A stretch of DNA of 32,739 bases from positions 1-32,739 of IMG/VR virus record IMGVR_UViG_3300020172_001015. One strand, written 5' to 3'. Below are positions 3,427 to 32,243 of this stretch, in pieces (within the stretch, counting starts at the first letter, position 1; every line of letters begins with the position of its first letter). The notes under the pieces were generated by a model that saw nothing but the letters and a program-made list of their open reading frames with translations, made no database searches and was not told the DNA's origin. The DNA is from a virus. Made by a program: the position numbers and the translations under genes.

Positions 3427-3438
3427 TTTGTATCTTTA
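3406..3438 (+). promoter_or_regulatory. Bacteroidota-type promoter for leader element A
   Basis: TATCTTTA at 3431-3438 matches TAnnTTTG except for the last base, with an ATG/TG at 3406-3408 about 22 nt upstream as a weak -33 box. The expected start, a few bases downstream, falls at the first base of the 5' hairpin of element A (3442). It lies at the end of the helicase gene, which constrains the -33 half. The same 8-mer occurs at 29417-29424. Confidence 0.5.
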
Positions 3439-3441
3439 CCA

Positions 3442-3521
3442 TGTAGGGTGGTAGCTACAATAAGAAATTTTTAAATCCCTCAAGTTGACGTGACTACCAC
3501 CACTGATACTTGAGGTTTTTT
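3442..3521 (+). ncRNA. Kissing-loop terminator RNA, element A
   Basis: Non-coding stretch that folds by exact base pairing. Hairpin P0: TGTAG (3442-3446) with CTACA (3455-3459), enclosing the 8-nt loop GGTGGTAG (3447-3454). Hairpin P2: CCTCAAGT (3478-3485) with ACTTGAGG (3508-3515), followed by six T (3516-3521), i.e. an intrinsic terminator with an unusually large 22-nt loop. Inside that loop CTACCACC (3494-3501) is the exact complement of the whole P0 loop. The two hairpins can therefore kiss over 8 bp, forming an interleaved pseudoknot. The HNH gene starts 5 nt after the T-run, so the element is either a short RNA or a leader that blocks transcription and the translation start. I do not recognise a named RNA family. 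Element B (31909-31998) has the same plan. Confidence 0.7.
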
Positions 3522-3526
3522 ATTTT

Positions 3527-4012
3527 ATGGAAGTTTGGAAAGATGTTATTGGGTACGAGGGATTGTATCAAGTGAGTAATTTAGGTAATGTTAAAACATG
3601 TAAAGAAAAAATTTTAAAGAAAAGTTTTACTATTGACTTTTATCATAGAGTAAATTTATTAAATGGAAGTGAAAATAAAAGTAAAAACTTTAGAATACAT
3701 AGATTAGTAGCTATGGCTTTTATAGAAAATTTAGAAAACAAAGAAACAGTTAATCATATAGATGGTAATAAACAAAATAATAATGTAGAAAATCTTGAAT
3801 GGGCTACAAGAAAAGAACAAACTCAACACGCATTAAGAACAGGGCTTTTTAAACCTCCTAAATGTATAGAAGTAATAGACATTAAAACAAAAAAAATATA
3901 TAAAAACGCAAAAGAAATTAGCATATTATTTAATATTAATATATCAACATTAAGAGCAAAGTTAAACGGAACAAGAAAAAATAATACTAATTATGAGTAC
4001 GTTAGAAAGTAA
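3527..4012 (+). CDS. HNH homing-type endonuclease (NUMOD4-HNH-NUMOD1)
   Basis: Probable free-standing homing endonuclease that nicks or cuts DNA to spread its own gene. The N-terminus EVWKDVIGYEGLYQVSNLG is a classic NUMOD4 domain. Residues about 60-105 carry the HNH core (HRLVAMAFI, then VNHIDGNKQNNNVENLEW, then a closing His in QTQHALRTG). The C-terminal 50 residues (CIEVIDIKTKKIYKNAKEIS) look like NUMOD1, a DNA-binding repeat. It begins 5 nt behind the T-run of element A and its 3' end overlaps the VRR-NUC start by 20 nt, so it looks wedged between an older leader and the nuclease gene. No separate promoter is visible. Very A-rich codon use fits a recent arrival. Confidence 0.9.
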   Translation: MEVWKDVIGYEGLYQVSNLGNVKTCKEKILKKSFTIDFYHRVNLLNGSENKSKNFRIHRLVAMAFIENLENKETVNHIDGNKQNNNVENLEWATRKEQTQHALRTGLFKPPKCIEVIDIKTKKIYKNAKEISILFNINISTLRAKLNGTRKNNTNYEYVRK

Positions 4013-4309: not shown

Positions 4310-4498
4310 ATGGAAGCAGTTAAATTTTTAAAAGTAGGTAATGAATCGATAGGGTTCAATTTAGGTGGAAAATGCAATGTATACGTTGCAGTTTTAGGTA
4401 ACAAATTTGGTTACTTGCCAAATGAGGATAAACCTTATATGCCGATAGGTGGAAGAAAAACTTTGAAAATGGTTGTTAATCTTTTAATCTTTAAATAA
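4310..4498 (+). CDS. Small conserved protein, copy 1 of a duplicated pair
   Basis: 62 residues, function unknown. Predicted beta-rich, with no membrane segment. The C-terminal half carries KFGYLPNEDKPYMPIGG, identical in the paralogue at 29533-29718. Over those 17 codons the two genes differ at nine third positions with no amino-acid change, so the protein sequence is under selection. It follows its own near-consensus promoter, which suggests early or strong expression. Position at the head of the ERF/Gp157 block is compatible with a regulatory or host-takeover role, but that is inference. Confidence 0.78.
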   Translation: MEAVKFLKVGNESIGFNLGGKCNVYVAVLGNKFGYLPNEDKPYMPIGGRKTLKMVVNLLIFK

Positions 4499-29532: not shown

Positions 29533-29718
29533 ATGAAAACAACTTATATTAAAGTAGAAAACACAGCAACAGGTTACGGATTAGGTGGTAACGTTAACAT
29601 TTATGTTGCTTGTCAAGGTGATAAATTTGGTTATTTACCAAATGAAGACAAACCATACATGCCTATTGGTGGTAAAAAAACATTAAAAAGAGTTGAATCT
29701 ATTTTAATTTTTAAATAA
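29533..29718 (+). CDS. Small conserved protein, copy 2 of a duplicated pair
   Basis: 61 residues, unknown function. Aligns without gaps over most of its length to the 62-aa protein at 4310-4498, with 17 identical residues KFGYLPNEDKPYMPIGG and a LxVYVA/IYVA core (NVNIYVACQGDKFGYLP). Driven by its own promoter, it is the first gene of the early-type cluster behind the lysis terminator. No membrane helix, no metal motif. A duplicated small protein with promoters of its own suggests a dosage-critical early role. Confidence 0.75.
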   Translation: MKTTYIKVENTATGYGLGGNVNIYVACQGDKFGYLPNEDKPYMPIGGKKTLKRVESILIFK

Positions 29719-31190: not shown

Positions 31191-31327
31191 AAAAATACAT
31201 TTATAAAGGTGTAATAATAACATACGCAGGATTTAAAACGGAAGATTACTATTGTTTTTATGGATACTTTGAAAACTCGTTTCTTTACCTAAAAGAATAT
31301 CAAATTTTAAAATTAAAAGAAATATGA
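31187..31327 (+). CDS. Hypothetical protein, 46 aa
   Basis: MKKYIYKGVIITYAGFKTED, then YYCFYGYFENSFLYLKEYQI: Tyr/Phe-rich short beta protein, no family. ATGA overlaps with both the glucosaminidase and the lipoprotein gene support it as a coupled ORF. Confidence 0.5.
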   Translation: MKKYIYKGVIITYAGFKTEDYYCFYGYFENSFLYLKEYQILKLKEI

Positions 31328-31575
31328 AAAAACTAATAATTGCAGCGGCATTGCTCATGGTAGGCTGCCAAAAAGAGGAAGTGAAAACGTGCGATTGCCT
31401 TCGCATAACGGACATTAAACATGATTCGTTGGTATTTTACGAGAATACCGTTTACACAGCAGAAATAACCATGATCAGCGATTGTACGTTTCTGCAAACA
31501 AAACGGATGTTTCATAGTGAAATAGAACCCTATAAACAAAACAAAGTCGGTGAATGCTGGCAACCTCCATTTTAA
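31324..31575 (+). CDS. Small lipoprotein, 83 aa
   Basis: Signal peptide with lipobox (MKKLIIAAALLMVGCQKEEV; cleavage before Cys15). The mature part is short with Cys in KTCDCLRITDIKHD, a central MISDCTFLQTKRMF and a terminal GECWQPPF. Probably placed in the outer membrane or periplasm. Phage lipoproteins often block superinfection; that is inference. It is the last gene before the terminator at 31583-31609 and shares its overall plan with the lipoprotein at 32019. Confidence 0.7.
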   Translation: MKKLIIAAALLMVGCQKEEVKTCDCLRITDIKHDSLVFYENTVYTAEITMISDCTFLQTKRMFHSEIEPYKQNKVGECWQPPF

Positions 31576-31609: not shown

Positions 31610-31629
31610 GTGTGTAAACTTTTACACTT

Positions 31630-31666
31630 TTGGACACTTTACCATTGATTATCAGTGTACATGTGT
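31630..31666 (+). repeat. 37-bp direct repeat, copy 1
   Basis: TTGGACACTTTACCATTGAT (first 20 of 37). 35 of 37 bases match copy 2 at 31745-31781, 115 bp downstream. Here the dyad extends: ACACTTTAC pairs with GTAAAGTGT downstream (ending at 31673). Confidence 0.8.
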
Positions 31667-31744
31667 AAAGTGTACAGTTTACACGAATAAAAATAAATAA
31701 TGTAAATTAAAAAATAAATTATTGAAAATGTAAAAAGTGTAAAA

Positions 31745-31781
31745 TTGGACACTTTACCATTGATTATCAATGTATATGTGT
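31745..31781 (+). repeat. 37-bp direct repeat, copy 2
   Basis: Matches copy 1 with two changes. Its centre CATTGAT-T-ATCAATG is a perfect 7+1+7 palindrome and GGACAC (31747-31752) pairs with GTGTCC (31778-31783) around it with equal 5-bp spacers, a nested symmetrical site as expected for a dimeric or tetrameric DNA-binding protein. Confidence 0.8.
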
Positions 31782-31872
31782 CCAAAAAGTGTCCAAAAAC
31801 AGGTGTACAAATTGTACACGGTGTACAACTATTATTTGGAATTGTTCTAAATTACGATTATTTTAAAATAAA

Positions 31873-31905
31873 TTGAATCTAATTAAAATAATATATATAT
31901 ATTTG
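31873..31905 (+). promoter_or_regulatory. Bacteroidota-type promoter for leader element B
   Basis: TATATTTG at 31898-31905 is an exact TAnnTTTG match, with TTG at 31873-31875 (22-nt spacer, slightly long). The expected start, 4-5 bases later, coincides with the first base of the 5' hairpin of element B (31909). It follows directly on the repeat array, which may regulate it. Confidence 0.7.
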
Positions 31906-31908
31906 CAG

Positions 31909-31998
31909 AGTGTTAGGTCGCAACCTCATATGAAACACTAAAGACATTTGCCCGTCAATTTGTAGAAACTGCGACCTCTACATTTTGACGGGCTTTTT
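31909..31998 (+). ncRNA. Kissing-loop terminator RNA, element B
   Basis: Non-coding stretch with exact pairings. P0: AGTGTT (31909-31914) with AACACT (31934-31939), loop 19 nt. P2: GCCCGTCAA (31950-31958) with TTGACGGGC (31985-31993) and five T (31994-31998), a terminator with a 26-nt loop. The first 8 nt of the P0 loop, AGGTCGCA (31915-31922), are the exact complement of TGCGACCT (31970-31977) in the P2 loop. A competing local pairing AGGT/ACCT (31915-31918 with 31923-31926) could act as a switch. The lipoprotein gene starts 20 nt after the T-run. Same architecture as element A, different sequence; no named family recognised. Confidence 0.72.
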
Positions 31999-32018
31999 AA
32001 TTTATTAAATAATTTATT

Positions 32019-32243
32019 ATGAAAAAAAAGATTTTAATTTTTAGCATTGCTTTGACAATGTTAAGCTGTTCAAAAGAACCATCAACGTGTGGTAGAATTG
32101 TAAGTGATAATGTACATGATTATTCTGTTACAATTAGAAATTCAAACACTAACAACTTGAAAACATTTTACCTTACAGAAGGTGATTGGATGAACGCACA
32201 CCCCGGAGATAATTATTGTATCACTAACACAACACAATGGTAA
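32019..32243 (+). CDS. Small lipoprotein behind element B, 74 aa
   Basis: Lipobox signal (MKKKILIFSIALTMLSCSKE; cleavage before Cys17). Mature part: STCGRIVSDNVHDYSVTIRN, then EGDWMNAHPGDNYCITNTTQ and W. The Cys after the lipobox, the central D/H block and the Cys near a terminal Trp mirror the lipoprotein at 31324, so they may be distant paralogues. It starts 20 nt after the T-run of element B, so expression likely depends on read-through or on the RNA fold. Possible superinfection exclusion or surface role, unproven. Confidence 0.7.
   Translation: MKKKILIFSIALTMLSCSKEPSTCGRIVSDNVHDYSVTIRNSNTNNLKTFYLTEGDWMNAHPGDNYCITNTTQW

Follow-up and report, generated by a model that had tools for sequence, protein, structure and literature searches.

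The P4 CI and P1 c4 RNAs are phage RNAs of untranslated leaders, which are complementary to short segments on both their upstream and downstream sides and control transcription termination. In the IncIalpha/IncB rep leader, stem-loop I pairs beside the start codon of the replication initiator, and a kissing partner (Inc RNA) competes. The PeSL cassettes combine an early promoter and a stem-loop before exchangeable phage genes, and we know of no loop-loop pairing in them. The put RNA of HK022 acts on RNA polymerase and prevents termination, and it contains neither a terminator nor a kiss. Bacteroidota hosts do without Shine-Dalgarno sites, and little is known of how phage genes are timed in them. 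To our knowledge, no leader element of the kind described below has been known for Bacteroidota phages.

The DNA analyzed here, called the window, is an IMG/VR virus record of 32,739 bp from a tailed phage with terminase, portal, and tape-measure genes. TAnnTTTG boxes of the Bacteroidota type are present in it. The window had no DNA similarity to cultured phages, and single elements gave chance matches only. Two of its leaders, elements A and B, each carry a hairpin 1 whose loop (K) is complementary to a segment (K') in the loop of a following terminator hairpin. Element B belongs to a leader-RNA family that stands before many genes in viruses of Flavobacterium-type bacteria and in which types A, B, and C can be told apart; the family looks like an undescribed set of built-in switches of gene control. 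In subtype C1, K is repeated before the start codon.

The order K, K', K of C1 resembles seqA, seqB, seqC of P4 CI and P1 c4 (Rfam RF01695). Unlike these RNAs, the family has a 7–8-bp kiss between a hairpin at +1 and the terminator's own loop within a single short leader, a downstream copy of K is absent from most members, and there was no match to Rfam, c4 included. C1 follows the same logic as the IncIalpha/IncB leader and several family members precede replication initiators, whereas here the competitor lies in cis at the 5' end and the structure includes an intrinsic terminator. As in ColE1 RNA I/RNA II, loops of 7 nt are fully paired loop to loop, but the pairing is intramolecular and sense here and intermolecular and antisense in ColE1. 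The hairpins close to the start of the transcript may also be compared, by analogy, with those of HK022 put RNA. The likeness to PeSL lies in a small promoter-plus-hairpin cassette and in one element standing before different genes, although the phages and the host phylum are different. PeSL cassettes of T4-type phages are mentioned in PMC4503421 and PMC3950731.

Layout and Predicted Folding of Element B

The initial annotation described the P0, loop-loop, and terminator helices of element B as exact, and placed the element just behind an exact TAnnTTTG box, with its end 20 nt short of a lipoprotein gene. Letter-by-letter reading confirmed all of this (Table 1), the ATG lying exactly 20 nt past the T run. 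Hairpin 1 begins 3 nt behind the -7 box TATATTTG, which has the form of a Bacteroidota primary-sigma promoter. Transcripts of F. johnsoniae begin 4–5 nt after the TAHHTTTG box (PMC6847099), and the start of element B is therefore predicted at 31910-31911. At the other end, the G+C-containing hairpin GCCCGTCAA/TTGACGGGC is directly followed by TTTTT, which predicts an intrinsic (Rho-independent) terminator. Hairpin 1 stands at the predicted transcript start and the ATG within about 50 nt behind the terminator, a layout that helps define the family. The RNA fold had a z-score of -5.8, and none of 200 shuffles was as good. With a descriptor of P0, kissing, and terminator, B scored 23 and A scored 21, compared to 19 at most in 30 dinucleotide shuffles of one strand.

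Table 1. Coordinates and sequences of the features of elements A and B in the window.
Feature	Position	Strand	Sequence or remark
Element A	3442-3515	+	type A
-7 box, element A	3431-3438	+	TATCTTTA, 7 of 8 match
Hairpin 1, element A		+	TGTAG[GGTGGTAG]CTACA
Terminator, element A			CCTCAAGT/ACTTGAGG, UGAC/UGAU internal loop, GTG/CAC inner helix
Apical K', element A	3494-3500	+	CTACCAC, covariation support
Gene behind element A	3527-4012	+	NUMOD4-HNH homing-type endonuclease (Pfam PF07463, PF13392)
Element B	31909-31998	+	letter-by-letter reading
-7 promoter element, element B	31898-31905	+	TATATTTG, exact TAHHTTTG, Bacteroidota primary sigma factor
Hairpin 1, element B	31909-31939	+	P0 AGTGTT 31909-31914 / AACACT 31934-31939
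Loop K, element B	31915-31922	+	AGGTCGCA
Terminator hairpin, element B	31950-31993	+	predicted fold; compensated outer and inner helices in relatives
Terminator outer stem, element B	31950-31958 / 31985-31993		GCCCGTCAA / TTGACGGGC, 9 bp
Terminator inner helix, element B	31961-31966 / 31977-31982		TGTAGA / TCTACA
Terminator apical loop, element B	31967-31976		10 nt, holds 7-nt core of K'
K', element B	31970-31977	+	TGCGACCT, exact complement of K AGGTCGCA
U-tract of predicted intrinsic terminator, element B	31994-31998	+	T5
Gene behind element B	32019-32243	+	74-aa putative lipoprotein, lipobox MKKKILIFSIALTMLSC

Some features of the earlier description had to be modified. The terminator loops of 22 nt (A) and 26 nt (B) do contain the complement of the upstream loop, but they are not open, as an inner helix leaves an apical loop of 8–10 nt, in which the 7-nt partner lies. 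The 8-nt complement behind the proposed 8-bp inter-loop helix of B is exact, but 7 bp is the safer length of the kiss because pairing at the eighth position (T31977) would be in competition with the inner helix. Elements A and B share the order of the helices but not, as had been stated, their spacing: the gap between hairpin 1 and the terminator is 10 nt in B and 18 nt in A, and the hairpin-1 loop has 11 extra nt in B and none in A.

The 74-aa lipoprotein showed a weak match to the Cor superinfection-exclusion family (phrog_1119, E = 8e-4), and another small ORF that resembles a lipoprotein gene occupies 31324-31575. Directly upstream of element B, an iteron-like region (31612-31830) contains a 37-nt direct repeat (31630 and 31745, 95% identity) together with several TGGACACTTTAC/GTAAAGTGTACA-type inverted repeats; this region is possibly an origin or operator. 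Elsewhere in the window, a paralogous pair of ~62-aa proteins of the GDKFGYLPNEDKPYMPIGG type is encoded at 4310-4498 and 29533-29718. Each of these genes has its own TATATTTG box (4277 and 29502) and a plain leader without a kissing element.

Collection and Distribution of Related Elements

Relatives were sought via the helicase adjoining A, the lipoprotein behind B, DNA patterns, and whole-record scans; the U-tract and the stem were built into most search descriptors. The pattern TATATTTGN{45,75}TTAGTAGG and the first type-A and type-B patterns were too loose and brought in many chance contigs, and only full elements were kept. Among 66 records (1.55 Mb), the descriptor combined with the -7 box gave 73 matches compared to 3 in shuffled copies, a rate which is biased as a frequency because most records had been picked through a pattern match. 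Six K sequences, which were AT-rich matches or lacked family features, were dropped by hand, leaving 64 elements in 54 records with 45 distinct sequences.

Four cultured phages whose selection was independent of the motif carry an element, namely Flavobacterium 11b (33634-33723), Polaribacter P12002L (34389-34462, minus strand), FCL-2 (37487-37582), and Cellulophaga phi18:3. The same element was found in Polaribacter P12002S, which was fetched as the sister of P12002L. No convincing element was found in Nonlabens P12024L/S, Riemerella RAP44, phage ctfjg026, and Flavobacterium 6H, and Bacteroides B40-8 had a weak candidate only.

The exact core pattern of type A was absent from about 85,000 species genomes, and a type-A covariance model found a member in 1 of 395 Bacteroidia genomes, beside phage-like genes. 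These results indicate that the family occurs mostly in phages. The 10 matches of the exact C1 core pattern among the same number of species genomes were rejected as chance. The single chromosomal member (L538, C14:38855-38945, minus strand, K GTCGAAG) precedes a small ORF and a 277-aa protein resembling a phage replication protein, and it is probably a prophage.

Rfam 15 gave no match in the window at gathering thresholds, and elements of types A, B, and C gave weak matches far below threshold. A literature search, chiefly of freely readable journals, found no description of such an element.

Covariation of the Loop-Loop Helix

The kiss is judged to be real because the pairing is kept while its letters change. 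In the alignment of type A (13 sequences), the loop-loop helix was 100% paired, with three positions and 12 cells showing double changes, and the whole structure did better than each of 500 shuffles and every slid control. In a previous set of 12 sequences, four positions had double changes. The helix was also 100% paired in type B (7 sequences), where 9 cells were doubly changed and 3 of the 7 kiss positions showed compensatory double changes. The K variants of this type, AGGTCGCA, AGGTCGGA, and AGATCTCA, each occur with their complement. P0 was retained in all 7 sequences, and the outer and inner helices of the terminator were conserved with compensation. In the family as a whole, four separate helices covary.

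As the descriptor itself demands a kiss, searches free of it are important. The type-B pattern GCCCN{1,3}TCAATTTGTA with its matching 3' arm holds neither K nor K', and an exact 8-nt partner was present in 8 of 8 distinct terminators found with it. Type-A terminators picked by their skeleton had a 7-nt partner in all 10 distinct cases; the fetching scan included part of K' and nothing of hairpin 1 or K. The partner was likewise present in 17 of the 17 printed C1 matches to the loop skeleton plus CTG. Moreover, the model that found the Bacteroidia-genome member was built without K:K' pairing, and the pair GTCGAAG/CTTCGAC lay outside its training set.

The initial annotation had named as its refutation related phages that keep the terminator stem and lose the loop-loop complementarity; in these three sets the partner was kept throughout. 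Its proposals of a kissing-loop terminator behind a putative Bacteroidota promoter and of regulators that form a family and differ in loop identity are supported. That an RNA of the predicted fold forms is nearly certain. The local AGGT/ACCT stem, which had been suggested as a competitor of the kiss and the basis of a two-state switch, was not supported: relatives with the loop AGATCTCATACATAGT (L066, L017, and L312) are unable to form it, and it is missing in the AGATCTCA relatives.

Anatomy of the Family and Its Downstream Genes

Sequence and covariation establish both hairpins and their kiss, as well as the promoter, the U-tract, the constant place before the start codon, and the second copy of K in C1. 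Hairpin 1 starts 2–5 nt behind the -7 box in 35 of 45 elements. Transcript starts in F. johnsoniae lie 4–5 nt behind this box (PMC6847099), which would place hairpin 1 at the very 5' end of the RNA (about +1). An ATG follows 6–52 nt behind the element in 45 of 45 (two at contig edges), and in nearly all members the start codon is 6–25 nt behind the stem. A U-tract follows the hairpin in nearly all members, being weak in two C1 members (L449 and L451). Promoter, hairpins, U-tract, and start codon are always on one strand in a fixed order, while the spacers vary freely.

The terminator hairpin consists of an outer stem, an internal loop constant per subtype, an inner helix, and the apical K' loop. 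The internal loop is UGAN/NGAU in type A, U-rich in type B, and AGUA/GAA in type C, and UGAA/GGAU also occurs among the subtypes. We take AGUA/GAA to be the consensus of the sarcin-ricin/loop-E motif. A constant internal loop may fix the angle that the kiss requires, or it may be a binding site for a protein. L028 and L083 (K CTGGAAG) are mosaics, in which hairpin 1 and the loop of type A are joined to the U-rich internal loop of type B, suggesting that the pieces recombine.

The genes behind the elements encode NUMOD4-HNH and T5orf172-type nucleases, lipoproteins, helicases, BT4734-type primases, DUF6291 proteins, and unknowns; replication initiators stand behind the elements of P12002L (gp44), FCL-2 (gp54), and L529. 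Behind the AGATCTCA-type element lies a lipoprotein gene in L066, and L070 and L312 each have a different ORF there. Thus the element behaves as an exchangeable cassette, and its presence before unrelated genes fits a general expression module. A metabolite riboswitch, whose ligand-binding core would be highly conserved and linked to what the gene does, was rejected, since the loops vary freely with compensation and the downstream genes are unrelated; constancy within a subtype is limited to internal-loop motifs such as AGUA/GAA.

Repetition of K Before the Start Codon in Subtype C1

K was repeated between terminator and ATG in 12 of 45 elements, compared to 1.7 on average and 6 at most with K shuffled among the elements. 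In the C1 members, including L071 (12437-12550), L335, L436, L421, and L448, this copy (K2) stands directly before the start codon and follows the changes of the loop. The triplets K/K'/K2 were compared directly, as the MAFFT alignment was too poor for counts by column. They read AGTACAG/CTGTACT/AGTACAG, GATACAG/CTGTATC/GATACAG, GGTACAG/CTGTACC/GGTACAG, AGTGCAG/CTGCACT/AGTGCAG, and GAGCAG/CTGCTC/GAGCAG; the exceptions were L443 with a mismatch in K2 and L441 without K2.

In most C1 members with K2, it spans about -2 to -8 of the start codon. Positions -3 and -6, which favor translation initiation in Flavobacterium (PMC6847099), are covered by it. Hairpin 1 and the start site are therefore rivals for one terminator loop, and a two-state switch, which found no support in its AGGT/ACCT form, is plausible in C1 by means of this second copy. 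Elements A and B of the window, like types A and B generally, have no K2, and one mechanism may thus not fit all subtypes.

Discussion

We propose that element B is a cis-acting leader RNA of the phage working as a kissing-loop attenuator, in which the kiss promotes termination and read-through feeds the gene, and we give this reading a probability of about 0.52. Transcription would begin at the foot of hairpin 1, whose 7–8-nt loop would kiss the apical loop of the terminator while RNA polymerase copies the leader. The kiss would pin the apical half of the terminator hairpin and so speed closure of the stem, and most transcripts would stop as an RNA of ~85 nt. The downstream gene, in B the lipoprotein, would be made only from the read-through fraction, its amount set by formation of the kiss. 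In C1, the copy of K at the start codon would compete for the terminator loop, and the kiss would also decide if the start site is free. With K' in the apical loop, the kiss is compatible with the terminator and, judged by sequence alone, could either strengthen or weaken termination. Because the two can coexist, the kiss is not a classical antiterminator, and it most likely promotes termination, since K' is in the apical loop and hairpin 1 would be ready first. We infer termination in vivo, a kiss that promotes rather than opposes it, action in cis, and hence the direction and trigger of the control.

The closeness of the start codon to the stem, and in C1 a copy of K at about -2 to -8 that tracks the changes of K', would also suit a device of translation or mRNA stability, in which transcription mostly runs past the leader while the folded 5' end shields the mRNA and either blocks or releases the start site, which lies a few nucleotides behind the terminator hairpin. 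Structure in the start region does tune initiation in Flavobacterium (PMC6847099). A U-tract in nearly all members is needless for a purely translational role, however, and types A and B carry no second K; we consider this reading unlikely. The elements have their own promoter, a 5' hairpin, and a terminator, as would the gene of a small RNA of ~85 nt acting in trans on other transcripts or on its own copies through K:K', for dose sensing or exclusion of relatives. Plasmids control their copy number by kissing RNAs at replication initiators, and several members precede such genes. Yet K and K' are in the same molecule and the intramolecular kiss should win, and a small RNA has no need of a constant place 6–52 nt before a start codon. 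In none of the 9 records with more than one element do two elements share a K sequence, but this distinctness is not significant (identical in 0 of 11 pairs, 0.65 expected) and is too weak an argument for trans action. K and K' occur elsewhere in the window at only roughly chance frequency, and the suggested cross-talk with other RNAs, those of the host included, found no support; a role chiefly as a small RNA is rather improbable. Antisense copy control found no support either, as no minus-strand TAnnTTTG (CAAANNTA on the plus strand) is present in 31880-32040 around element B.

A signal like the put RNAs of HK022, by which a 5' RNA modifies RNA polymerase to ignore its own and later terminators, would account for a site immediately behind a phage promoter, for two hairpins with a specific tertiary pairing, and for the location before early-type (replication) genes. 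But put RNAs have no U-tract and no loop-loop helix, and we regard this reading as very unlikely. K and K' are also inverted repeats in the DNA and iteron-like repeats lie directly upstream of B, as might be expected of sites for a DNA-binding protein. The arrangement of promoter, hairpins, U-tract, and start codon on one strand in fixed order, with four covarying helices and freely varying spacers, is that of an RNA, and a mere DNA feature is hardly credible. A further reading, which we regard as speculative and quite improbable, is phage-wide self-recognition of RNA: the loop pair would be the private address of a cassette, the cis kiss and the start-codon copy would form a three-way switch of termination and translation, and like leaders would sense each other in trans, giving dose control of replication and homing genes.

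The family combines the absence of an Rfam entry with strong covariation and a tertiary contact inside a predicted intrinsic terminator, and cultured phages of Flavobacterium, Polaribacter, and Cellulophaga carry members of it. With it, one can test how a distant loop-loop contact sets the strength of a terminator, and its natural sets of differing kissing pairs could be used as regulators in Flavobacterium. For the phages themselves, it raises the possibility that their replication initiators and homing endonucleases are controlled by RNA.
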